64,000 nt of DNA from Marinomonas sargassi (GTDB lineage: Bacteria; Pseudomonadota; Gammaproteobacteria; Pseudomonadales; Marinomonadaceae), in contig NZ_JAOVZB010000004.1 of the NCBI RefSeq assembly GCF_025716875.1, forward strand, positions 186,001-250,000, read 5' to 3'. The notes under the pieces were generated by a model. It saw nothing but the letters and a program-made list of their open reading frames with translations. It was not told where the DNA came from and searched no databases. Made by a program: the position numbers and the translations under genes. Below are positions 5,833 to 15,683 of the stretch, piece by piece (the stretch's first letter is position 1; each line of letters opens with the position of its first letter).

Positions 5833-6435
5833 ATGAGTAATGCATTGCTAGAGTTACTTCCCGCACTAACACTATTTTGCCTAGTAAGCACATTAACCCC
5901 TGGGCCCAACAACATACTATTGGCTCACTCCGGTGCGAATTTTGGAATAAAAAGAACCTTGCCACATGTGGCTGGTATTCGTCTCGGCATGACACTTCTG
6001 CATTGCTTCATTTTATTAGGGCTAGGGAAAGTTTTTTCGTTATGGCCTAAAACACATGATGTTTTCGCCTTTATTGCGGCAGGCTACATCTTATATATGT
6101 CTATTAAAATTGCTCTGGCAAAACCCCATTCAAGCAAAAATAGTTTACAGCCAATGGGGGTGATTCAAGCAGCTCTTTTTCAAGGTATTAACCCAAAATC
6201 ATGGGCAAGCCTTATATCAGCTAGCTCTCTTTTTACTTTAGCAGGTGATCAATTTTGGCCATCAGCACTTATATGTATTATTGCTTTTAATGTGGCGACT
6301 CTTCCTGGAACATTTATGTGGATATCCATAGGTAAACTAGTGTCACGTAAACTAAAAGATCCCACCTTCCATAAGTACTTCAATATCTTAATGGGAGCGC
6401 TATTATCCACTACTTTACCTATGATGTTCCTGTAG
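5833..6435 (+). CDS. LysE/RhtB-family amino-acid exporter
   Basis: A 200-aa inner-membrane protein with about five or six hydrophobic segments. The N-terminal signature LTPGPNNILLAHSG near residue 22 is typical of LysE/RhtB exporters, which pump out amino acids and homoserine-like compounds. Divergent transcription from the MocR-type regulator, with shared palindromic boxes, suggests induced efflux. A strong bidirectional terminator follows. Confidence 0.9.
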   Translation: MSNALLELLPALTLFCLVSTLTPGPNNILLAHSGANFGIKRTLPHVAGIRLGMTLLHCFILLGLGKVFSLWPKTHDVFAFIAAGYILYMSIKIALAKPHSSKNSLQPMGVIQAALFQGINPKSWASLISASSLFTLAGDQFWPSALICIIAFNVATLPGTFMWISIGKLVSRKLKDPTFHKYFNILMGALLSTTLPMMFL

Positions 6436-6480
6436 AAAAAGACTCTACTAGCTTAAAGTAAAGCAGTGCTAAGGCTCCAT

Positions 6481-6512
6481 AAAAAAAGGACGCATAAAAG
6501 CGTCCTTTTTTT
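6481..6512. terminator. Bidirectional intrinsic terminator
   Basis: A perfect 13-bp stem (A-tract plus GGACGC pairing with GCGTCC plus T-tract) encloses a 6-nt loop. It lies between two convergent genes and carries A and T runs on both sides, so it can stop transcription in both directions. Confidence 0.9.
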
Positions 6513-6527
6513 ATATTAACCGTTAAA

Positions 6528-6737
6528 TTAAAGGTTAATTTGATTCAGTGTCAAAGCTGATGTTTCAATGTTTAACATCTTAGCTAAGTCTTCTTTCACT
6601 TCATCCATACTGCCGTATTGCGCCGCTGCGTCATATTCGCCTTTGAAGTAATGACCTTCTTTGTTGTTCACTCGGCCCAATTGAAATTTATCACCTTTTT
6701 CACCACGACCATTGATGATGTAGACATCGAGTTCCAT
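6528..6737 (-). CDS. Small conserved-looking hypothetical protein (69 aa)
   Basis: I do not recognise this family. The protein starts MELDVYIINGRGEKGDKFQL, is soluble and rather acidic, and has no signal peptide or membrane segment. The ATG at 6737 has GGAG 7 nt upstream on the minus strand; an upstream in-frame extension to 6818 lacks such support. It sits between the shared terminator and the yjf island, about 140 nt downstream of yjfC, so it may be read alone or by read-through. Confidence 0.6.
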   Translation of the reverse strand: MELDVYIINGRGEKGDKFQLGRVNNKEGHYFKGEYDAAAQYGSMDEVKEDLAKMLNIETSALTLNQINL

Positions 6738-6880
6738 AAATTCTCCAATAACATTTATACAGTAGAGGTCATTATATATGCTTATTAACAACGACCACCA
6801 GTCTTGCTTGAGAATCAAAGAAGTATTAAGGCTATATAGTGACTATATGATTAAAAAACCATTAATGCCTACACTAAAAA

Positions 6881-8047
6881 CTAAAGAATAATGTGAGGTA
6901 AATAGCGACTCATATCTTGAGTTATTGGACCACTGTCTTCCCGTACGGATATACCTGCTGCTTGGTTATCTACTAGCCAGCTGCCTATCAAGGTGTAATT
7001 ATCACCGAATCTAGGCAGTAAATGCGTTTTTTGATAGATAAATCCTTCCTCTCCATACGGCCCATCTGATATCGCCATTCCCTTTTGCTTACCAGTAAAG
7101 GAAATATTAGCTCCCTCCCGAGAAAAAATAGGCTTTTTAACTAAGGAGTCTATGTCAGACGCTAGGTGTAACTCATCTTCAAAAAAAGCAGGGAGTAAAT
7201 TCGGATGGTTTGGAAACAGCTTCCATAACATAGGTAATAACGCTTTATTGGAAAGAATACTTTTCCATGGAGGCTCTACCCAGCGAATATTATTATTCCC
7301 CAAGTCTGTCGAAAACTCTTCCTGAAACATAAACTCCCAAGGATAGAGCTTAAACATAGAAGTAATTATATGATCAGACAAATCAGTAAAACTGCCAGAT
7401 ACATCTCGACCAATATCTTCCATGTAGACAAATGCTGTTTTCAATCCAGCTTCTTTAGCGCAATCTTCTAGGTACTGAACTGTACCACGATCTTCCGGCG
7501 TTCCTTTGCAGCAGGCAAAATGCAATGTGCGATTTGGTGTGAGGATACTTATCTCTTTAAACCGATTAACTAGCTTTTCTTGAAGAGAGTTAAACTGGTC
7601 CGAATGAGAACTTAATACACCACTATCAACATTATCTTGCAACCACAGCCATTGCCAAAAGCCCGTTTCATAAATACTTGTTGGAGTGTCCGCATTATTT
7701 TCATAAAGCTTAGCATCACCGACACCGGAGTAGGCAAAATCTAGACGTGAGTACAAGCTAGGATCACCATTAAGCCAGGATTGCCGAATAAAATCCCATT
7801 GTCCCTCAGGTAAACAAAAGCGACGCATCAATTCATCGTCATGAATTACCTTCTCAACCACGGCTAAGCACATTTGATGGACATCTTCAGTTGGACCTTC
7901 AATCCCCTTCTCAATCTGTTCTAACGTAAATTGATAATAGGCTGTCTCATCCCAATACTTTTCGCCATACATGGTGTGAAATTCAAAGCCAAATTCTTTT
8001 GCCCTTTGCTGCCATTGAGCTCGTTCCATGATAGGGAGGCGAAACAT
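6881..8047 (-). CDS. yjfC: YjfC/YgiC-type ATP-grasp ligase (glutathionylspermidine synthase-like)
   Basis: A 388-aa cytosolic ATP-grasp enzyme matching the C-terminal synthetase domain of glutathionylspermidine synthase, at the length of E. coli YjfC/YgiC. Recognisable parts are the N-terminal RLDFAYSGVGDAKLYENNADTP region and the C-terminal FSREGANI segment that lines the ATP site. It lacks the amidase half of bifunctional GspS. It ends an operon with YgiB-type lipoprotein, DUF350, DUF2491 and PspA-like genes. The family probably ligates an amine or amino acid to a peptide; the real substrate is unknown. Confidence 0.88.
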   Translation of the reverse strand: MFRLPIMERAQWQQRAKEFGFEFHTMYGEKYWDETAYYQFTLEQIEKGIEGPTEDVHQMCLAVVEKVIHDDELMRRFCLPEGQWDFIRQSWLNGDPSLYSRLDFAYSGVGDAKLYENNADTPTSIYETGFWQWLWLQDNVDSGVLSSHSDQFNSLQEKLVNRFKEISILTPNRTLHFACCKGTPEDRGTVQYLEDCAKEAGLKTAFVYMEDIGRDVSGSFTDLSDHIITSMFKLYPWEFMFQEEFSTDLGNNNIRWVEPPWKSILSNKALLPMLWKLFPNHPNLLPAFFEDELHLASDIDSLVKKPIFSREGANISFTGKQKGMAISDGPYGEEGFIYQKTHLLPRFGDNYTLIGSWLVDNQAAGISVREDSGPITQDMSRYLPHIIL

Positions 8048-8050
8048 ATA

Positions 8051-8647
8051 CTAGCCTCCCCAGCTTTTAGATTTGCCGCCGCCCCAGTTAGATTTAGCGG
8101 AAGCTACTGAGCCAAACCCTCCTCTTGAAACAGTGCGTGTTGGTGTAGGCTTAGAAGACAAAGTAGACTTTGGCACCTTATAAGAAGATCTACCTGCACT
8201 ACCAATAACAGTACCGTCAGACAACATAACACGGCCATGATATGAAGAACGGCTATTACGATAATAGAACACTGGGTTATATACATACCCATGGTGGAAT
8301 GCATTACTCACCATAAAACCAGACATATAAGGCACAAAAAAGCCATCAGGCGATTGATGACAATATCTTTGGCCAAACTCTATACCGCACGCGGATAACG
8401 AGTTATATCTTGGTGCCGTTCTAGCAGCTTCTTCTAAAGCTTTTTGATAAGCAACCTCACATTGCTCCTGAGTTAAGTCTGTTTTTGACACACAATCATC
8501 AACAGAAGAAGCGACCTTCACATCTTCCTCGTTTCCACATGCAACTAAAGTTATGGACGCAACAGCTAATGCAACAGGCTTAAGCAAAGGCCTAACAATC
8601 AACTCTTTGCGCATAATAGCGATATTAATTTGTTTGCTTCTTTTCAT
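8051..8647 (-). CDS. yjfM: DUF1190 lipoprotein, YjfM/YgiB family
   Basis: The start region MKRSKQINIA and a following hydrophobic helix end in a lipobox-like LVAC near residue 37, so the protein is probably lipid-anchored. A conserved block follows (DCVSKTDLTQEQCEVAYQKA, then ERTAPRY-like AARTAPRY). The C-terminus is rich in Ser, Gly, Thr and Arg (VSRGGFGSVA), as in E. coli YgiB. GAGG 6 nt before the ATG at 8647 favours it over the GTG one codon upstream. Only 3 nt separate it from yjfC, so the two are translationally linked. Confidence 0.85.
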   Translation of the reverse strand: MKRSKQINIAIMRKELIVRPLLKPVALAVASITLVACGNEEDVKVASSVDDCVSKTDLTQEQCEVAYQKALEEAARTAPRYNSLSACGIEFGQRYCHQSPDGFFVPYMSGFMVSNAFHHGYVYNPVFYYRNSRSSYHGRVMLSDGTVIGSAGRSSYKVPKSTLSSKPTPTRTVSRGGFGSVASAKSNWGGGKSKSWGG

Positions 8648-8657
8648 CACAAACCTC

Positions 8658-9071
8658 TTAATATGTCATACAAGCTGCATTAAGTACCCCAACCGCAATA
8701 CTAGTTGCCGCTAGCATCACCCCCGCACTCACTTCATTTGCAATGATACGAGCAACAATTTTAGGCATGAAAATAAATCGCACAACAAGAAAGGCTAAAG
8801 ATTGGGCTATTAATGCCACAGCGCCCCAAACAGCAAAATCTAACAACGAAACAGAGTTTTCTGCCACACCACCCAAAGCAATAGCAAAACCGACAACAGC
8901 CCCACCAAACCCTATCGCAGCTGCTGTATTTTGCTCTTCTTTAATTAATTTCCATTCATCGTGGGGGGTTATAAGCGAATAGATAAATTTGAAGATAATG
9001 ACAAAAAGTAACGCTAAACCAAAATAGCTACCAAAATTTGCCACACTCTCCATAAGTGCCTGAATTTCCAT
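8658..9071 (-). CDS. yjfL: DUF350 inner-membrane protein, YjfL family
   Basis: A 137-aa membrane protein with four hydrophobic helices and the DUF350 pattern EEQNTAAAIGFGGAVVGFAIAL near residues 45-66. An AAGGAG-type ribosome site precedes the ATG. It lies between yjfK and yjfM in the island. The molecular function of DUF350 is not established; linkage to PspA-like proteins and ATP-grasp ligases suggests a membrane-stress role. Confidence 0.86.
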   Translation of the reverse strand: MEIQALMESVANFGSYFGLALLFVIIFKFIYSLITPHDEWKLIKEEQNTAAAIGFGGAVVGFAIALGGVAENSVSLLDFAVWGAVALIAQSLAFLVVRFIFMPKIVARIIANEVSAGVMLAATSIAVGVLNAACMTY

Positions 9072-9097
9072 AAAAACTCCTTAGTATTGTTATTGTA

Positions 9098-9736
9098 TTA
9101 ACCATGAATGGTAAGTTGTGATGGCGAAAGCGTTATACCTGTACTTAAAACAAAACAGCGATTTAAACTACCAGCTTGCTCACTTTCTTCTGCGGACAAA
9201 AATAATGACTCAGTAAAGCCATTACTCACTTCTCTCTCAAACAACATAGTGAACTGATCCGTTGATGAAACTTCCCCGTCTTCATCATAAGTATCTTCTT
9301 GTATATAGACTGGATTATGATAGTCACTAGCTGAAGTCCAAACTCGTTGATATATATTTCCCTCCACTTCATAGGAGGGGGTACCAATTTTCGTATTCAG
9401 TAAGGTATCCCAAATTTCTTGGGATACAATATCTTGGGTATCGTAGAAGTGAAATAATTTTACATCAACAACACTTTCAGACTGTTTATTACCTTCTGAA
9501 ATCACTTGTAAAAAAGCATCATCATCCGTGTAAAAGCGAAATACATAAGTACCATCTAATTCTGCAGTGCCAACCGCTTTAATAATATAACTAGTGGCTG
9601 CACCATCTGTCATTAATTCACTTTCATTCATTCTCAATAGCAATGGGTCTATTTCAAAACTGCCGCCTATACGTAGGCCCATGATAGAAGGCGTGGCACT
9701 AGCCTTCGCGTCTTTCTTTTTAAAAAATGAAAACAT
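9098..9736 (-). CDS. yjfK: DUF2491 protein, YjfK family
   Basis: A soluble protein of about 212 aa beginning MFSFFKKKDAKASATPS, matching the E. coli YjfK (DUF2491) family. There is no signal peptide; the short basic, aromatic N-terminus could touch the membrane. GGGTGA 8 nt upstream supports the ATG at 9736 over an upstream GTG. It is the first gene after an internal terminator, so this half of the island may have its own promoter in 9749-9874. Confidence 0.8.
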   Translation of the reverse strand: MFSFFKKKDAKASATPSIMGLRIGGSFEIDPLLLRMNESELMTDGAATSYIIKAVGTAELDGTYVFRFYTDDDAFLQVISEGNKQSESVVDVKLFHFYDTQDIVSQEIWDTLLNTKIGTPSYEVEGNIYQRVWTSASDYHNPVYIQEDTYDEDGEVSSTDQFTMLFEREVSNGFTESLFLSAEESEQAGSLNRCFVLSTGITLSPSQLTIHG

Positions 9737-9828
9737 ATTTAAAATCACCCACTAAACAACTGGAAATTAAAAGTTTTACTACACACAACACTATTGCAAA
9801 CCAACGAATTTAAAAGCCTACTCATAAA

Positions 9829-9860
9829 AAAGCCATTTCATTTACTTATGAAATGGCTTT
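9829..9860 (-). terminator. Intrinsic terminator inside the yjf island
   Basis: A 13-bp perfect stem (AAAGCCATTTCAT pairing with ATGAAATGGCTTT) with a 6-nt loop is followed on the minus strand by a T-run. It lies 14 nt after the PspA-like gene and should separate yqiJK-yjfIJ from yjfKLMC, or attenuate read-through between them. Confidence 0.85.
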
Positions 9861-9874
9861 GCTTTTTCATCCGC

Positions 9875-10573
9875 TTATTTTGCTTTTTTTGCTGCTAGTA
9901 TTTGAGCTAACTTATCATTGCCTTTAGCTGTATTACTGTTAGAGCCTATGCCTGCGGCTTTCAATTTTGCATCGAGATCACTACCACTTTCTTCGTTTGC
10001 AAGTTCCTCTGCTGCCTCCAATTCCGCATTACGCTGAGCTTGCTTTTCTTTGATTCGATCAAGGCTACTCAGGGCTGTTTTAACTTTGCTATTGGCTCCC
10101 ATGTGACGTGTTGACACAGCTACTTGCGCCTTTTGTACAGACTCAGTCGCTTTAACTTGTTCTATTTGCTGCTCCATTCGGCGAACATTACCTTTTGCTT
10201 TAGCTATGTTACTTTTTAACGATTGCTCTGACGTCAAAAAACTGTCCAAGATACTTTGCTCAGTTTCTAAAGTTGTTTCTAACTCAGCAACTCGATCCGC
10301 GCATTCTACTGCCAAAGCATCATCGCCTTTTTCACTCGCAGCAATAGCGTGGTTCGTGTAGGTTTCAATATCTGCTTGAAGAGCCTTCACCTTACCTTCT
10401 GCAAGTTTACGTTTTGCCATAATACGCGTCAGGTTCTCATCGCACAGTTGAAGCTCTTTTTTTGCTTCTCGCATCTCTTGGTCTAAAATACGAATCGCCT
10501 GACCATCAGCAACAGTTTCAATACCTTCATTAGCAGCACCACGCACTGCCGTCCATAGTTTTCTTAAACTCAT
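9875..10573 (-). CDS. yjfJ: PspA/IM30-family coat protein, YjfJ
   Basis: A 232-aa, almost wholly helical protein with long coiled coils from about residue 25 to 185 and PspA/IM30-type features (start MSLRKLWTAVRGAANEGIE, then LDQEMREAKKEL). PspA-family proteins form scaffolds on the inner face of the cytoplasmic membrane and help repair it. The C-terminus is low-complexity (GSNSNTAKGNDKLAQILAA). Its ATG overlaps the yjfI stop by 4 nt. No pspF or pspBC gene is nearby, so control differs from the classical psp operon. Confidence 0.88.
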   Translation of the reverse strand: MSLRKLWTAVRGAANEGIETVADGQAIRILDQEMREAKKELQLCDENLTRIMAKRKLAEGKVKALQADIETYTNHAIAASEKGDDALAVECADRVAELETTLETEQSILDSFLTSEQSLKSNIAKAKGNVRRMEQQIEQVKATESVQKAQVAVSTRHMGANSKVKTALSSLDRIKEKQAQRNAELEAAEELANEESGSDLDAKLKAAGIGSNSNTAKGNDKLAQILAAKKAK

Positions 10574-10974
10574 AGCGCTTTCTCCACATCTAAATAGTCA
10601 TCGCATAAATCAAGAAACTCTGTCACATTTTCAAATAACGTCTCGATTTCTTCCATTACTACAGTATCTTTGCTATCCACCGATAAAGCACCAAATGCCA
10701 CATAGTAGTCTTCATTTGCAATATTCTTTATGCATACTGAAGTCAGAGGCACATAATGATGACTTCGCAAAATCAATTCATTAAGAGCAGCTTTATCTTT
10801 CACACTTTTTGTTGAAAATAATGCGGCCTCGACCAAAATTTGTCTGCCACCTACATATACAAAAACATCAACACCCTCGTCATTAGATACCGCTAAGCAA
10901 TCACCTTCTGACTCTACGACCCAACTACCTTGAGACTCAATTAATTTTAATAATGCACTTCTGTTCCAAGACAT
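10570..10974 (-). CDS. yjfI: DUF2170 protein, YjfI family
   Basis: A 134-aa acidic, soluble alpha/beta protein (about three quarters through: SHHYVPLTSVCI; end: FLDLCDDYLDVEKAL) that fits E. coli YjfI (DUF2170). It overlaps yjfJ by 4 nt, so the two are probably made in fixed ratio. DUF2170 usually accompanies the PspA-like YjfJ and has no proven function; a partner or regulator of the coat protein is a reasonable guess. Confidence 0.82.
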   Translation of the reverse strand: MSWNRSALLKLIESQGSWVVESEGDCLAVSNDEGVDVFVYVGGRQILVEAALFSTKSVKDKAALNELILRSHHYVPLTSVCIKNIANEDYYVAFGALSVDSKDTVVMEEIETLFENVTEFLDLCDDYLDVEKAL

Positions 10975-11041
10975 AAGAACTCCCTTAATTTATAAAATGT
11001 AAAAATCTTTCTACTTCATAACAAACTTTGCAGTTACATCA

Positions 11042-12766
11042 TTAACTCTTTTTTTCTATGCCTTCACTCTTACCATCTTTAGGCATAAATGAAGTTGGAG
11101 AAAGATTATCGCCATTCAACAAGTTTGATAATGATCCATCAACCTTATCAACTAATCCAACCTCTCTTAATAAAGCATCGACCACTGGTGCATTGGCACG
11201 ATAATTCAACGCTGCTTGAGTTACCTGATCTGCCATATTGCCACTACTCGAGCTCACACTGTCTCCTGTTAAGCCCCCTCCCGTACTATAACCTTGTAAT
11301 ATTTTAATACCTTCAATGTTTTCTAAAGGTTTTACTGTACTAGCAATAATTTCTGGCAAGACTTTTAAAATTGCTAAAGCTTTTTGTAGCTCTATCTGTT
11401 CATCTTTTAAAGTATTTTCAGCGTCATAAAGAGCTTGTTTACCCGCTGCTTCTACTGCTAACACTTTTTCATCAGCTTCAGCCTGAAAAAGCTTCGCATC
11501 AGCATTAGCTCTGGCAGTGGTAAGTACCGCATCTGCTTCATTTTTAGCAGCTTCCATTTTGGCTTGCGCCTCCACAGTTATACCAACAGCTTCTCTCTCC
11601 GCTTCTTTCTGAGCGTCAATAACTTCAATCTTCATTTGACGATTCGCCTCAGCTATCTGGCGAGCAGTAATAACTTCTTCTTCTTTCTCAACTTTAACTT
11701 TTTCTGCACCTGCCGCTTTCGCTCTAGCGGCAGACTCTTCCTCAGACTTAGTTGCCACCGCTATTTGTTTTGTTTGCTCAGCAACCTGAAGATCCCTCTC
11801 TTGTATAATTCGAGCTTCTTCAAGCTGTTTTCGCTTGGCAATTTCTTGGGACTCAATCTCTCTAGACTTCTCTATTTCGGCAATCTCAATAGCACGCTCT
11901 TTCGCTATTTCAGCTTCTCGTTCTTCTTTCTCTTTTTGTTCTCTTTGTTTCGCTATTTCGGCCTTTTGATTCTGCCTTTTGAATGCCAAAACCTGCTCTT
12001 GATTTAAAAGAGCCTCTTCTTCATCTTGCTTGATGTTGAGGGATTGTTTATTCGCCTCTAAATTTCTAGTTTCTATTTGGATGCGATTATCTTGCTCAAT
12101 ATCATTTGTTTCTTTGCGCTTCTCTTCAATAATTTTAGCTAGACGCGCACGACCTTCCGCATCAAAAGCATTATTTTCATTAAAATACTGTAAATCTGTT
12201 TGATCAAAGCCTGTCAAGCTCACGGACTCTAACTCAAGCCCATTTTTCTCTAGGTCGTTAGCAACACTCTGCTGCACCTTTTGCACAAAGTCTGCTCGCT
12301 GCTCATGCATTTCAATCATCGACATCTCTGCTGCTACCGCACGCAAAACATCTACAAATTTGGACTCCATCAGCTTCTTAACTTCTTCTGCGCGGGTAGT
12401 GCGCGTCCCCAAAGTCTGAGCTGCCATAGATATTCCATTACCATTAGGTGATACTCGAAGATAGAAGTCCGCCTTAACATCTACACGCATTCTGTCTCTG
12501 GTAATCAAAGCATCTTTTTGTGTCTTTTCTACCTCTATTCGAAGTGTGTTCATATTAACTGGTATCACTTCATGGACAACGGGCAACACTAAGGCCCCAC
12601 CGTCTTTGATTACTTTCTCTCCTCCAAGCCCAGTTCTTACAAACGCTGTTTCTTTCGTCGCACGCTTGTAGAGCTTGGCAAAGATAATACCTATTGTTAT
12701 GAGTGCAAGAATGATTATCATCGCAAGAATAATCGATGCTGATATATTTATTGAGAATATTTCCAT
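11042..12766 (-). CDS. yqiK: Flotillin-like SPFH-domain protein YqiK
   Basis: A 574-aa flotillin. One N-terminal membrane helix (about residues 8-28) is followed by an SPFH/Band-7 domain (about 40-200) and a very long Glu/Ala/Lys-rich coiled coil (about 215-470). A Gly/Ser-rich tail comes near 495-510. This matches E. coli YqiK in layout and size. AGGA about 9 nt upstream supports the ATG. It follows yqiJ, as in E. coli, but is joined here to the yjf genes. Flotillins organise membrane microdomains. Confidence 0.92.
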   Translation of the reverse strand: MEIFSINISASIILAMIIILALITIGIIFAKLYKRATKETAFVRTGLGGEKVIKDGGALVLPVVHEVIPVNMNTLRIEVEKTQKDALITRDRMRVDVKADFYLRVSPNGNGISMAAQTLGTRTTRAEEVKKLMESKFVDVLRAVAAEMSMIEMHEQRADFVQKVQQSVANDLEKNGLELESVSLTGFDQTDLQYFNENNAFDAEGRARLAKIIEEKRKETNDIEQDNRIQIETRNLEANKQSLNIKQDEEEALLNQEQVLAFKRQNQKAEIAKQREQKEKEEREAEIAKERAIEIAEIEKSREIESQEIAKRKQLEEARIIQERDLQVAEQTKQIAVATKSEEESAARAKAAGAEKVKVEKEEEVITARQIAEANRQMKIEVIDAQKEAEREAVGITVEAQAKMEAAKNEADAVLTTARANADAKLFQAEADEKVLAVEAAGKQALYDAENTLKDEQIELQKALAILKVLPEIIASTVKPLENIEGIKILQGYSTGGGLTGDSVSSSSGNMADQVTQAALNYRANAPVVDALLREVGLVDKVDGSLSNLLNGDNLSPTSFMPKDGKSEGIEKKS

Positions 12767-12787
12767 AGAATAACAATCCTTTTTTAT

Positions 12788-13405
12788 TTATAAGTAACCT
12801 GTCACTAACCAAAAACCAGTTTCTTTCTTTACAAGAATAACTTTATCACCGCTTACAAACTCATCATCATTTTCAAATGGCTGAACAAGCACATAGTGAA
12901 GCTGATTAAATTTATCTATATATTTCGCTTCTGCGGAACAGCCCATACGAGCAGAACCAACTGTTATTTGAGCTACCACACCGACAAAGTCATCATCACT
13001 CATTGCTGAGGACTCTTCTTTAGGTAATATAAGCGCTATTAATGCACCCACTCGCCCAGTTAGTAAAGCTGCAAAAAATAGGGCCATCGGTACAGATATT
13101 ACTGGTGTAATAAAAGACTCTTCATTCGCAAACAACCAAACTATATTAAAAACATACCCTGACAAACTAAAAATAGTTAAAAAAATAACAAGCCAAATAA
13201 TCATTGGTAAGCGATCAAGAGCCAACCAACTTATTAACGCTACAACACTCGGTACCTCAATATCAAAATCAGGAATGTCGCTGAATAGCCCAAACAAACT
13301 CGAACCTAAAAAAATCCCAATAACTTCTGCCGAAAACAATAGAACAACAATGAATAATGCAGTACTGAAAAGAAAATTTGCATCATTAAAGAAGAATGTG
13401 GTCAT
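12788..13405 (-). CDS. yqiJ: YqiJ-family membrane protein (NfeD-like OB-fold partner of flotillin)
   Basis: A 205-aa protein with about three or four membrane helices in residues 10-130 and a C-terminal beta-rich domain (GVVAQITVGSARMG, then FNQLHYVLVQPF and SGDKVILVKKE). The arrangement and conserved positions match E. coli YqiJ, in which the C-terminal part is an NfeD-like OB fold. NfeD-type proteins pair with SPFH proteins, and the flotillin gene follows after 21 nt. This is the first gene of the island. Confidence 0.85.
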   Translation of the reverse strand: MTTFFFNDANFLFSTALFIVVLLFSAEVIGIFLGSSLFGLFSDIPDFDIEVPSVVALISWLALDRLPMIIWLVIFLTIFSLSGYVFNIVWLFANEESFITPVISVPMALFFAALLTGRVGALIALILPKEESSAMSDDDFVGVVAQITVGSARMGCSAEAKYIDKFNQLHYVLVQPFENDDEFVSGDKVILVKKETGFWLVTGYL

Positions 13406-13700
13406 AGTTTGTCATCCTGAATGTGAGTAATTTCCATCTTTTTTATCGCACCTATAAATGTATATTGATTATCTTTCTCAAGATTAACTTCCACAACCTA
13501 AATCCACTTATTAATGCGAAAAACATAAACATGACTCATTATAAGAAACTCTAAGGAAACGAAATATTTGTTACTTATAAGCAACAAATATACAATATAA
13601 ACAACTATTATCAAGCATAATTTTATATATAGATGCTGTTTTTTAAATTTTATGCTACCTTCATACATTAACTGAGCCCTCTAACTTAGTGAGTAATCAT
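13406..13700. other. AT-rich divergent promoter region
   Basis: About 295 nt of AT-rich DNA separates the divergent yqiJ and DUF6471-type genes. It should contain both promoters. I see no convincing palindrome, riboswitch or hidden gene in it. Confidence 0.4.
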
Positions 13701-13979
13701 ATGAATCAAGACCAAAGTATTAAAAACAGACACTCTCTATCCCCTTATAAGCTTGCAATTACACGCTACATTCGCTCATCTCTTGCTTTAAAAGGTTTAA
13801 AATATGATGACTTATGTGAGCTACTTCAACGAAAGGGCATTACTATGACACCAGAAAACCTACGCAGTAAAACCCACAAAGGTATGTTCTCTGCAGATTT
13901 ATTTACAGCTATTATCGACGTGCTTGAATTAGAAGAAGATGCTCTGAAGACTATTCTGAAGGAAGCAAAAAGTGCCTAG
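13701..13979 (+). CDS. DUF6471-type small helical protein
   Basis: A 92-aa helical protein with a layout like a compact helix-turn-helix (YDDLCELLQRKGITMTPENL, then SKTHKGMFSADLFTAIIDVL). This pattern fits the DUF6471 family of uncharacterised proteins. The start is taken as the ATG at 13701, with GTGAG 7 nt upstream; a GTG at 13689 is possible. The last 8 nt overlap the rhomboid gene, which implies coupled translation. Whether it binds DNA is not known. Confidence 0.72.
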   Translation: MNQDQSIKNRHSLSPYKLAITRYIRSSLALKGLKYDDLCELLQRKGITMTPENLRSKTHKGMFSADLFTAIIDVLELEEDALKTILKEAKSA

Positions 13980-14523
13980 AGCTTTCCTTCCTTATACCGT
14001 GCTTTATTTTGTCATGGCCATTTGGTTGGTATATATACTTGACCTTGTTCTGATTGGTGTCGATTTAGATCAATTTGGTATTCGCCCCCGAACCCTCACT
14101 CATATTCCCAGCATATTGCTATCACCATTTTTGCATAGCAATTTATATCACCTACTATCAAACACAGTAGCAATTTTGATACTCGGTATATTAGTAAACA
14201 TGTCTGTGGGGAATATAAGACTAAGACAAATTATGATGGGTGGTGCAATAGGCTCAGGTATAGGTATATGGCTATTTTCTGCTAGTGGCTTAGTGATTGG
14301 TGCTTCAGGTATAGTTTTTTCACTACTTGGGTTCTTACTTGCGAACGCTGCTTGCAACCCAACTATAAGAAGTTGGGTTGCTGCTATTGTGGCTTTTTTG
14401 GCTTATGGTGGAACTCTATTCTCTTTTGCTCACTTTCTCCCTCATATTTCTTGGGCAGCACATTTCTGGGGATTTTTAAGTGGCATCCTACTAGCGGCCC
14501 TTTTCAAAAAACAAAGTACATAA
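13972..14523 (+). CDS. Rhomboid-family intramembrane serine protease
   Basis: A 183-aa membrane protein with about six helices, the size of minimal bacterial rhomboids. The catalytic Ser is at 112 in GASG and the His at 164 in AAHFWGFLSG. The oxyanion-side motif HSNLYHLLSN is at 55-64. It starts with GTG inside the upstream DUF6471-type gene (8-nt overlap). Rhomboids cut transmembrane substrates; none is identifiable here, though the neighbouring membrane-stress island is a possible source. Confidence 0.9.
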   Translation: MPRAFLPYTVLYFVMAIWLVYILDLVLIGVDLDQFGIRPRTLTHIPSILLSPFLHSNLYHLLSNTVAILILGILVNMSVGNIRLRQIMMGGAIGSGIGIWLFSASGLVIGASGIVFSLLGFLLANAACNPTIRSWVAAIVAFLAYGGTLFSFAHFLPHISWAAHFWGFLSGILLAALFKKQST

Positions 14524-14602
14524 CAGCAAACTTAGGAGCGGTATAAGTATAACTGTAATTAAGTACTTGCTATTTTTTGACATAGAAAGATTATGTGCTC
14601 AT

Positions 14603-15124
14603 CTACAATTCAGCTAATCGAAATCCTGCGATTTTATGTACTTCATTTAATGCTCGGTCAAACTCAGTTTGCCAATCGTTGGGCATCCTTTCTTCAAAGC
14701 CTTTAAGTATTTGTTCTTTGGTTGCGCCTTTTACCGCCATGATGAAAGGGAAGCCAAATTTGCCTCGGTATTCATCATTTAACTGTAGAAAGTGAACTAG
14801 CTCTTCATCACTGCATTGATCTAAACCAGCACCCGCTTGTTCTGACTTAGACGCATCAGTGAGTGAACCAGCTAATGCTGCTTTGCCTGCTAGATCTGGA
14901 TGCGCCCTTAGTAAAATAAGCTTTTGCTCATCAGAACTTTGATCCACAACGTCACGCATGGCCGCTTGAAGCTTTTCTTTACCATCTAGGTAACTGCTTG
15001 GGTGTTGTGTTTTTTGCTGCCACACTAATTCCGCTACCCAAGGCGAATGTTCGTATATGCTACCCAATACAGCCACAAAGTCTGCTTCATCTAGTGAGGC
15101 AAACACAGCTTGTTCATTCTGCAT
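14603..15124 (-). CDS. uraD: 2-oxo-4-hydroxy-4-carboxy-5-ureidoimidazoline (OHCU) decarboxylase
   Basis: This enzyme carries out the last step of urate oxidation to (S)-allantoin. The catalytic His 75 lies in RAHPDLAG and the conserved NDEYRGKFGFPFI block is present near residues 130-142. GGAG 6 nt upstream supports the ATG at 15124; a TTG four codons upstream overlaps that ribosome site. It is divergent from uraH, with hpxO beyond it, so the whole urate-to-allantoin route is encoded within 2.5 kb. Confidence 0.95.
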   Translation of the reverse strand: MQNEQAVFASLDEADFVAVLGSIYEHSPWVAELVWQQKTQHPSSYLDGKEKLQAAMRDVVDQSSDEQKLILLRAHPDLAGKAALAGSLTDASKSEQAGAGLDQCSDEELVHFLQLNDEYRGKFGFPFIMAVKGATKEQILKGFEERMPNDWQTEFDRALNEVHKIAGFRLAEL

Positions 15125-15326
15125 TTTCTTCTCCAATCACTTGCGCTTTCTAAACGCGTATTTATTATTAACGCCTGCTCAGATCAATAATCTAAGTCGA
15201 TGGCATAAATATTGATTTATTTTTTGCAGCTCTCTTTATTGTTATGGTGATAAAGAGTTCTAATTTAAAGATCTATCTGCAAAAACTGGGCTCAAACCGC
15301 AATACCTCTATTATTAAGGAAATATT

Positions 15327-15683
15327 ATGGGTTACCTAACCACTCACATTCTCGATACGACAAAAGGCATTGCTGCCGAAAATGTCGCAATTCGTTTATT
15401 CCAGCATACAAATACAGGTCAACGTCAACTGATACACACCACTATCTCTAACCACGATGGCCGATGTGACAGCCCATTATTAGAAGGCTCAGCATTCATA
15501 GCTGGCGTCTACGAGCTAGAATTTGATATTGATGCATACTTTGCGAACCAAGGTATCGAGTTAGAAGAACCTAATTTTTTAAATACCGTGGTTATTCGCT
15601 TTGGTATTCATGATGAATCCACTCACTACCATATACCTTTACTGGTCTCGCCTTATTCCTACAGCACCTATCGCGGTAGCTAA
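15327..15683 (+). CDS. uraH: 5-hydroxyisourate hydrolase (transthyretin-like)
   Basis: A 118-aa transthyretin-related protein that hydrolyses 5-hydroxyisourate to OHCU. The family hallmarks are present: THILDTTKG near the N-terminus with the active-site His, and the C-terminal YRGS. No signal peptide is seen, so it should be cytosolic. It lies between divergent uraD and co-directional hpxO and bridges their reactions. Confidence 0.96.
   Translation: MGYLTTHILDTTKGIAAENVAIRLFQHTNTGQRQLIHTTISNHDGRCDSPLLEGSAFIAGVYELEFDIDAYFANQGIELEEPNFLNTVVIRFGIHDESTHYHIPLLVSPYSYSTYRGS

Follow-up and report, generated by a model that had tools for sequence, protein, structure and literature searches.

A flotillin gene pair joined to a yjf PspA-ligase operon in Marinomonas sargassi

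We analysed a 64,000-nucleotide stretch of the Marinomonas sargassi genome (assembly GCF_025716875.1, contig NZ_JAOVZB010000004.1, positions 186,001 to 250,000), called the window below, in which eight genes read on the minus strand fill positions 6881 to 13405. The contig is 376 kb long, and the assembly, of 3.14 Mb, is given as 99.99% complete. A preliminary description of this DNA, made from its letters, had seen in these eight genes a union of the flotillin locus yqiJ-yqiK and of the locus yjfIJKLMC, which are separate in E. coli. Both points were confirmed: all open reading frames (ORFs) are open and matched Pfam families above the gathering score, and in E. coli K-12 yqiJK is found at 3.19 Mb and yjfIJKLMC at 4.41 Mb. 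In the order of reading, with spacers of 21, 67, −4, 126, 26, 7 and 3 bp, the genes are YqiJ, flotillin, DUF2170, PspA, DUF2491, DUF350, DUF1190 lipoprotein and GSP_synth ligase:

12788..13405, minus strand: yqiJ, NfeD-like membrane protein with an OB-fold (Pfam YqiJ_N and YqiJ_OB; 28.5% identity to E. coli YqiJ).
11042..12766, minus strand: yqiK, flotillin (Pfam Band_7 and Flot; 43.8% identity to E. coli YqiK).
10570..10974, minus strand: yjfI, DUF2170, CesT/Tir-like chaperone family (Pfam; sole DUF2170 detected in the genome).
9875..10573, minus strand: yjfJ, PspA/IM30 family (Pfam PspA_IM30; sole PspA detected in the genome).
9098..9748, minus strand: yjfK, DUF2491, predicted to be beta-rich, without evident signal peptide (Pfam and structure model).
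8658..9071, minus strand: yjfL, DUF350 membrane protein (Pfam).
8051..8650, minus strand: yjfM/ygiB-like DUF1190 lipoprotein (Pfam; LVAC-G lipobox read by eye).
6881..8047, minus strand: ygiC/yjfC-like GSP_synth ATP-grasp ligase (Pfam; identity to E. coli YgiC and YjfC).

The flotillin is of the YqiK type, with Band 7 and Flot domains and an adjoining NfeD-type gene, and the DUF2170-PspA dyad followed by DUF2491, DUF350, DUF1190 and GSP_synth makes up a yjf operon. Each half has a published counterpart. In the accessible text of Ravi et al. 2024 (PMC11237479), the DUF2170-PspA dyad accompanied by flotillin and YqiJ forms one neighbourhood group, and DUF2170-PspA with ATP-grasp, DUF350, DUF1190, DUF2491 and a potassium channel forms a separate one. 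We found no paper reporting such a join in the open-licence literature. The label “under-described”, given to the island in the preliminary description, therefore suits the joined arrangement and not its two components. Judged from gene content in the genomes sampled below, the joining of yqiJK to the yjf operon is a rare fusion of two published neighbourhoods, rather than a conserved eight-part machine. As far as can be judged from a single assembly, the arrangement is real.

Counting how often the two loci are joined had been suggested at the outset. Positions of DUF2491 were compared with those of YqiJ (PF07290) or flotillin in four genome samples. In the genus sample (48 genomes), DUF2491 was found in 8 genomes, YqiJ in 5 (over the cut-off) and both in 4; the order sample (194 genomes) gave 27 genomes with DUF2491, 10 with YqiJ/flotillin and 4 with both. 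The class sample (369 genomes) yielded 8 and 8 (over the cut-off), with both in 2, and the order of G348 (247 genomes) 23 and 27, with both in 5. PF07290 is short and can miss diverged YqiJ, and flotillin itself was searched in the order of G348 alone, at E 1e-100. Over the four samples, 12 genomes contain both sets (G000, from which the window comes, G566, G575, G592, G383, G508, G553, G348, G604, G634, G719 and G799), and the sets are adjacent in one of them, G000. The closest other pair on the same contig is about 249 kb apart (G799), and 5 of the 11 others have them on different contigs. Neither flotillin nor YqiJ was found near any of 111 other distinct yjf loci, nor was yjfK, L, M or C found in any of 45 other yqiJK loci, within the fetched stretches. 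For the yjf counts, L058 was dropped, no YjfK being found in it, and the C-terminal 120 residues of YjfK served to remove duplicates. Flanks of 3 to 20 kb were available, and upstream scoring was impossible for 8 of 112 rows. The yjf loci named individually are the best 80 of 226 confirmed, and are therefore biased to near relatives. As a general system the join is thus not borne out, and within this sample it is unique to the strain. The two sets nevertheless occur together above hypergeometric expectation in the genus (0.0017), class (0.011) and order (0.035) samples, more weakly in the order of G348 (0.089), kinship being ignored in this calculation.

The position of the promoter suggests how the two sets came together. 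In all seven other Marinomonas with a yjf operon, yjfI directly faces a divergent pair of genes, encoding a DUF6471 protein and a rhomboid. The window keeps this pair, but yqiJ-yqiK sits exactly between it and yjfI. The elements to be considered are the following:

13587..13614, minus strand: promoter TTGATA-16-TATATT upstream of yqiJ, counterpart of the yjfI promoter of the relatives (best match of the matrix described below; also found in a separate promoter scan).
13568..13587, minus strand: palindrome TTGTTGC-TTATAA-GTAACAA, located where transcription presumably starts, candidate operator for DUF6471 (3 of 12 positions off consensus).
13689..13979, plus strand: divergently read DUF6471 protein, candidate regulator, XRE-like in its predicted fold (family match, structure model).
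13972..14523, plus strand: rhomboid-family intramembrane protease, behind DUF6471 (family match).
9829..9860, minus strand: hairpin followed by TTTTTT between yjfJ and yjfK, terminator or attenuator candidate (fold and sequence).

The seven relatives share a promoter before yjfI, TTGACA-16-TATATT, placed 48-50 bp from the start codon. A 41-bp weight matrix was built from these seven genomes, the window being excluded. Its best match on both strands of the window is at 13617, minus strand, upstream of yqiJ (18.1 bits, next 8.7), a score reached by none of 5000 shuffles of that region. No matrix-like promoter was found in the yqiK-yjfI gap (best score −18.6). The distance from the −35 box to the DUF6471 start is 75 bp in the window, against 82 bp in G566 and G575. 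Since the counterpart of the promoter stands upstream of yqiJ and none stands before yjfI, the flotillin pair was most likely inserted between the promoter and the first yjf gene; with yqiJK standing behind the ancestral yjf promoter and ahead of yjfI, all eight genes are predicted to form a single transcription unit. Insertion downstream of the promoter, giving one unit, is the simplest reading of this layout, and the flotillin pair and the yjf operon, normally apart, are probably switched on together. Shared regulation, whose absence the preliminary description would have counted against itself along with restriction to one strain, is thereby suggested for this strain, and not for a general system.

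A search for traces of a mobile element or scar revealed no direct repeat shared by the two junction spacers, and a single inverted pair of 19 nt (84%), at 12780-12798 and 13570-13588. No tRNA was found in the window, and no Rfam family reached the gathering score at 6300-14600. The window flotillin is 79% identical to that of G348 and 80% to that of G799. The window groups with G348 in the tree of YqiJ (98/96), but with the other Marinomonas, and not with G348, in that of flotillin (92/86); in a joint tree, which left out L184, L185, L186, L188 and L243, all seven form one clade (99.3/100). By these groupings, the yqiJ-yqiK pair is of a circulating type.

Proximity of a flotillin and a PspA is not limited to the window. 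A PspA-family gene is placed directly upstream in 17 of the 45 other yqiJK loci. Among loci L170-L188 this holds for 15 of 19 (for 11 of 12 where the locus comes from the same order as the window), and in the order of G348 for 2 of 26. The contig of L185 is short, and the PspA of L172 is a weak match (30.3 bits for a Pfam cut-off of 33.9), included in the training set of the profile used. In the PspA tree, whose deep nodes are weak, 13 flotillin-linked proteins form one clade (98.1/99), and the four flotillin-linked proteins of Marinomonas form another (99.6/100), on the YjfJ side. The window PspA falls within a 15-row clade (98.7/100) of ordinary YjfJ proteins from yjf operons. By these trees, flotillin-PspA linkage recurs with different PspA lineages. 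A search at E 0.001 detected one PspA and one DUF2170 in G000, so that the window flotillin shares the genome's only dyad with the ligase operon. Unlike the window, G566 and G575 keep a separate dyad for the flotillin locus and for the yjf locus (two DUF2170 and three PspA genes in each genome, one dyad at each of the two loci). A second DUF2170-PspA dyad is found directly upstream of yqiJ-yqiK in L170, L171 and L173 (G566, G575 and G430).

We compared the island with known systems, using the parts of the papers that were accessible. The yjf neighbourhood of Ravi et al. 2024 and of E. coli (yjfIJKLMC) has the same DUF2170, PspA, DUF2491, DUF350, DUF1190 and GSP_synth genes in the same order; the window differs by the flotillin pair between promoter and yjfI, and has no potassium channel gene in its 126-bp yjfJ-yjfK gap (9749-9874), as is also the case in E. 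coli K-12. This gap is likewise short in seven other Marinomonas loci, and a potassium channel gene is present between yjfJ and yjfK in L035 (8664-9716) and L078 (8892-9965). With the bac-like neighbourhood of Ravi et al. (bac of P. aeruginosa), the window shares the same four gene types, adjacent on one strand. Its dyad is downstream of yqiJK, whereas it is upstream in the bac-like loci L170, L171 and L173, and its PspA is of the yjf-operon lineage, not the flotillin-linked one. Because of this placement of the dyad, the window was not filed as a bac-like member, but as one that may work like it. In P. aeruginosa, bac is a transcribed DUF2170-PspA-short NfeD-SPFH operon with two more genes, as joined from PMC10948618 and PMC13086221, the latter making no mention of PspA; it includes bacE-F and a sigma-54 site has been proposed for it, these parts describe no ligase in it, and a bacA mutant was affected in biofilm and rhamnolipid. 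E. coli yqiJ-yqiK is a similar NfeD-like and flotillin pair, with no PspA beside it in K-12. In B. subtilis, pspA-ydjGHI (PMC8581546) also combines an SPFH protein and PspA in one operon, with a terminator after pspA, and the SPFH protein is needed for PspA at the membrane. YdjI has no membrane anchor and does not behave like classical flotillins, and neither DUF2170 nor a ligase is described in pspA-ydjGHI in the accessible part of that paper. Finally, yjfIJKL of E. coli was reported to be raised in heat-evolved strains, a promoter deletion being the predicted cause.

The ligase shares 58.5% identity with E. coli YgiC and 48.7% with YjfC. It matched the structures of YgiC (PDB 7uk8, E 3.5e-159) and YjfC (PDB 7uk6) over its full length, and its full-length GSP_synth match and close YgiC identity are as expected for a peptide-spermidine ligase. 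The lipoprotein is likewise closer to YgiB (34.7%) than to YjfM (24.5%), so that both proteins are nearer to YgiC and YgiB than to their E. coli yjf counterparts; ygiBC is a separate pair in E. coli, unlike the ligase and lipoprotein genes of the window. YgiC and YjfC are annotated as peptide-spermidine ligases in the E. coli record, and are called peptidylpolyamine synthetases in the accessible part of a 2025 paper, citing Pederick et al. 2023, whose title refers to peptide-spermidine ligase activity. Sui et al. 2012, as cited in another paper, found YgiC to be without glutathionylspermidine synthase activity. Because of these annotations and citations, we propose peptide-polyamine ligation as the predicted reaction class of the window ligase. 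The earlier statement that the ligase substrate is not known was too strong as far as the class of reaction is concerned.

DUF6471 is divergent and less than 1 kb from yjfI in 88 of the 111 other distinct yjf loci (e.g. L066, L078, L101), 104 of the 112 rows, window included, having at least 600 bp upstream. We found no paper naming it in the open-licence literature. Its model has five helices (pLDDT 95), and its best structural matches are mostly DNA-binding proteins of XRE type: a controller protein by VIA-align, at Z 11.1 (rmsd 1.4, 74 residues), and ClgR as best hit by Foldseek (E 0.12, probability 1.00). With helical models, a VIA-align Z under about 13, as here, can reflect a common arrangement. 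The upstream regions have in common a palindrome, TGTRAM-(4-7)-KTYACA, with TAT in the middle, which was found with at most one mismatch in 60 of 88 upstream regions, compared to 5 of 1485 stretches taken at random from these loci and 10 of 880 shuffled sequences; the wider consensus was written after reading some of the scored sequences, so that this count is descriptive. The window copy touches the −10 box and is good as a palindrome. A looser pattern, combining promoter and inverted repeat, was found in 14 of 89 regions, window included; the window has a single instance, at 13614. Of the 111 other yjf loci, 57 have a rhomboid gene, 16 of them upstream, behind DUF6471, 40 directly after the ligase gene and 1 inside the cluster (e.g. 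L067, L071, L121, L142). The main text of Ravi et al. 2024 (PMC11237479) makes no mention of it. DUF6471 and the palindrome are thus a candidate switch of the yjf operon, and the rhomboid a candidate protease. As for the hairpin after the PspA gene, the scan gave the 9829-9860 stem on the plus strand only, one of 8 sites in total, not clearly above shuffles (5.2, sd 2.6). Hairpins are present at this place in the relatives too, and in 5 of 7 a stem with a T run is clear on visual inspection. Such a hairpin could make the PspA half the stronger product.

We favour, by a little more than even chances, a fused operon in which the yqiJ-yqiK pair entered an existing yjf operon behind its promoter and ahead of its first gene, and in which flotillin and PspA work together as follows. 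The promoter beside DUF6471 would read NfeD, flotillin, DUF2170 and PspA first, DUF2491, DUF350, the lipoprotein and the ligase lying beyond the terminator-like hairpin. The DUF6471 protein may hold this promoter through the start-site palindrome until membrane or polyamine stress. YqiJ and flotillin would form a membrane-bound assembly helping to recruit the cell's only PspA to damaged membrane, with DUF2170 as putative chaperone or regulator of PspA, and the ligase arm may join a polyamine to a peptide or protein at the damaged membrane. The best-supported function is that of a flotillin-PspA membrane-stress module under the yjf promoter, the peptide-polyamine ligase arm being an older partner of PspA.

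Several observations weigh against this scheme. The window promoter has drifted, scoring 18 bits versus 51-60 bits in the relatives, and its palindrome differs from the wider consensus in 3 of 12 positions. No PspA is found directly upstream in 28 of the 45 other yqiJK loci, including those with the most similar flotillins (G348, G799), so that flotillin does not depend on a linked PspA. A link between flotillin and the ligase is supported by no other genome sampled. From the accessible parts of the literature, SPFH gene deletions in P. aeruginosa gave no pronounced phenotype (PMC13086221), and E. coli yqiK mutants were reported without growth defect (unpublished data cited in a paper). A related, more tentative proposal, which we would not bet on, is that of a partner swap, in which a PspA-less flotillin pair under the yjf promoter uses the PspA-DUF2170 dyad of the yjf operon, under DUF6471-palindrome control, with the rhomboid as a further part of the PspA-polyamine-ligase system.

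Alternatively, the two sets may have become neighbours by chance: a mobile flotillin pair, inserted at a site where this was tolerated, would borrow the promoter, and flotillin and yjf proteins would work independently. This would agree with the single joined case among 12 genomes containing both sets, and with a pair of circulating type whose most similar relatives stand alone. The landing site, exactly behind the promoter of the operon with the genome's only detected PspA, argues for a functional association instead, as do the recurrence of flotillin-PspA linkage elsewhere and the co-occurrence of the two sets in the genus (0.0017), weaker in the other samples and calculated without regard to kinship. 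We consider chance neighbourhood possible but doubtful. The preliminary description had proposed one membrane-associated machine of eight parts, in which flotillin and PspA scaffold the ligase. In its favour are the single predicted transcription unit and the joining of PspA to the ligase in almost every yjf locus scored. The part of this idea that pairs flotillin with PspA remains plausible, given the linkage seen elsewhere, but its extension to the ligase fits poorly with the lack of flotillin in 111 other yjf loci and of yjfK/L/M/C in 45 other flotillin loci, and with the hairpin that separates the PspA half from the DUF2491-to-ligase half; we hold the whole machine to be improbable. An artefact joining two loci has to be considered for an arrangement known from one assembly. 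Intact genes meet here in short spacers inside a 376-kb contig, with the promoter at nearly its usual distance from DUF6471 (75 versus 82 bp, G566 and G575), and such an error is highly improbable.

Gene neighbourhood is a main argument for cooperation of flotillin, PspA and polyamine ligase, and conserved neighbourhoods may be passively inherited. An insertion that brings a flotillin under the promoter driving the only PspA detected in the genome, as proposed in the fused operon, is a separate event, and makes the strain a compact setting in which to ask whether flotillin recruits PspA. If the partner swap were true, it would show that the DUF2170-PspA dyad is an exchangeable working partner of YqiJK flotillins. 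DUF6471, palindrome and rhomboid provide a testable candidate switch and protease for the widespread, poorly understood yjf operon.

The YjfK (DUF2491) model is confident and beta-rich (pLDDT 92). No trustworthy match was obtained for it in the PDB: the best Foldseek hit had E 6.5e-3 but a TM of 0.16. The best VIA-align hit, E. coli YgiF (Z 6.6, rmsd 2.7, 81 residues), was too weak and was not used, as were several further structural matches, which we take to be triphosphate-tunnel folds. The model suits an internal protein better than an outer-membrane porin, the role proposed in the accessible part of PMC12492005. Downstream of the ligase, on the same strand, an ORF of 96 codons (6528-6818) had no Pfam or NCBIfam match. 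Beyond the rhomboid, at 14603-15683, lie OHCU decarboxylase and HIUase/transthyretin-family genes, presumably encoding steps of urate breakdown.

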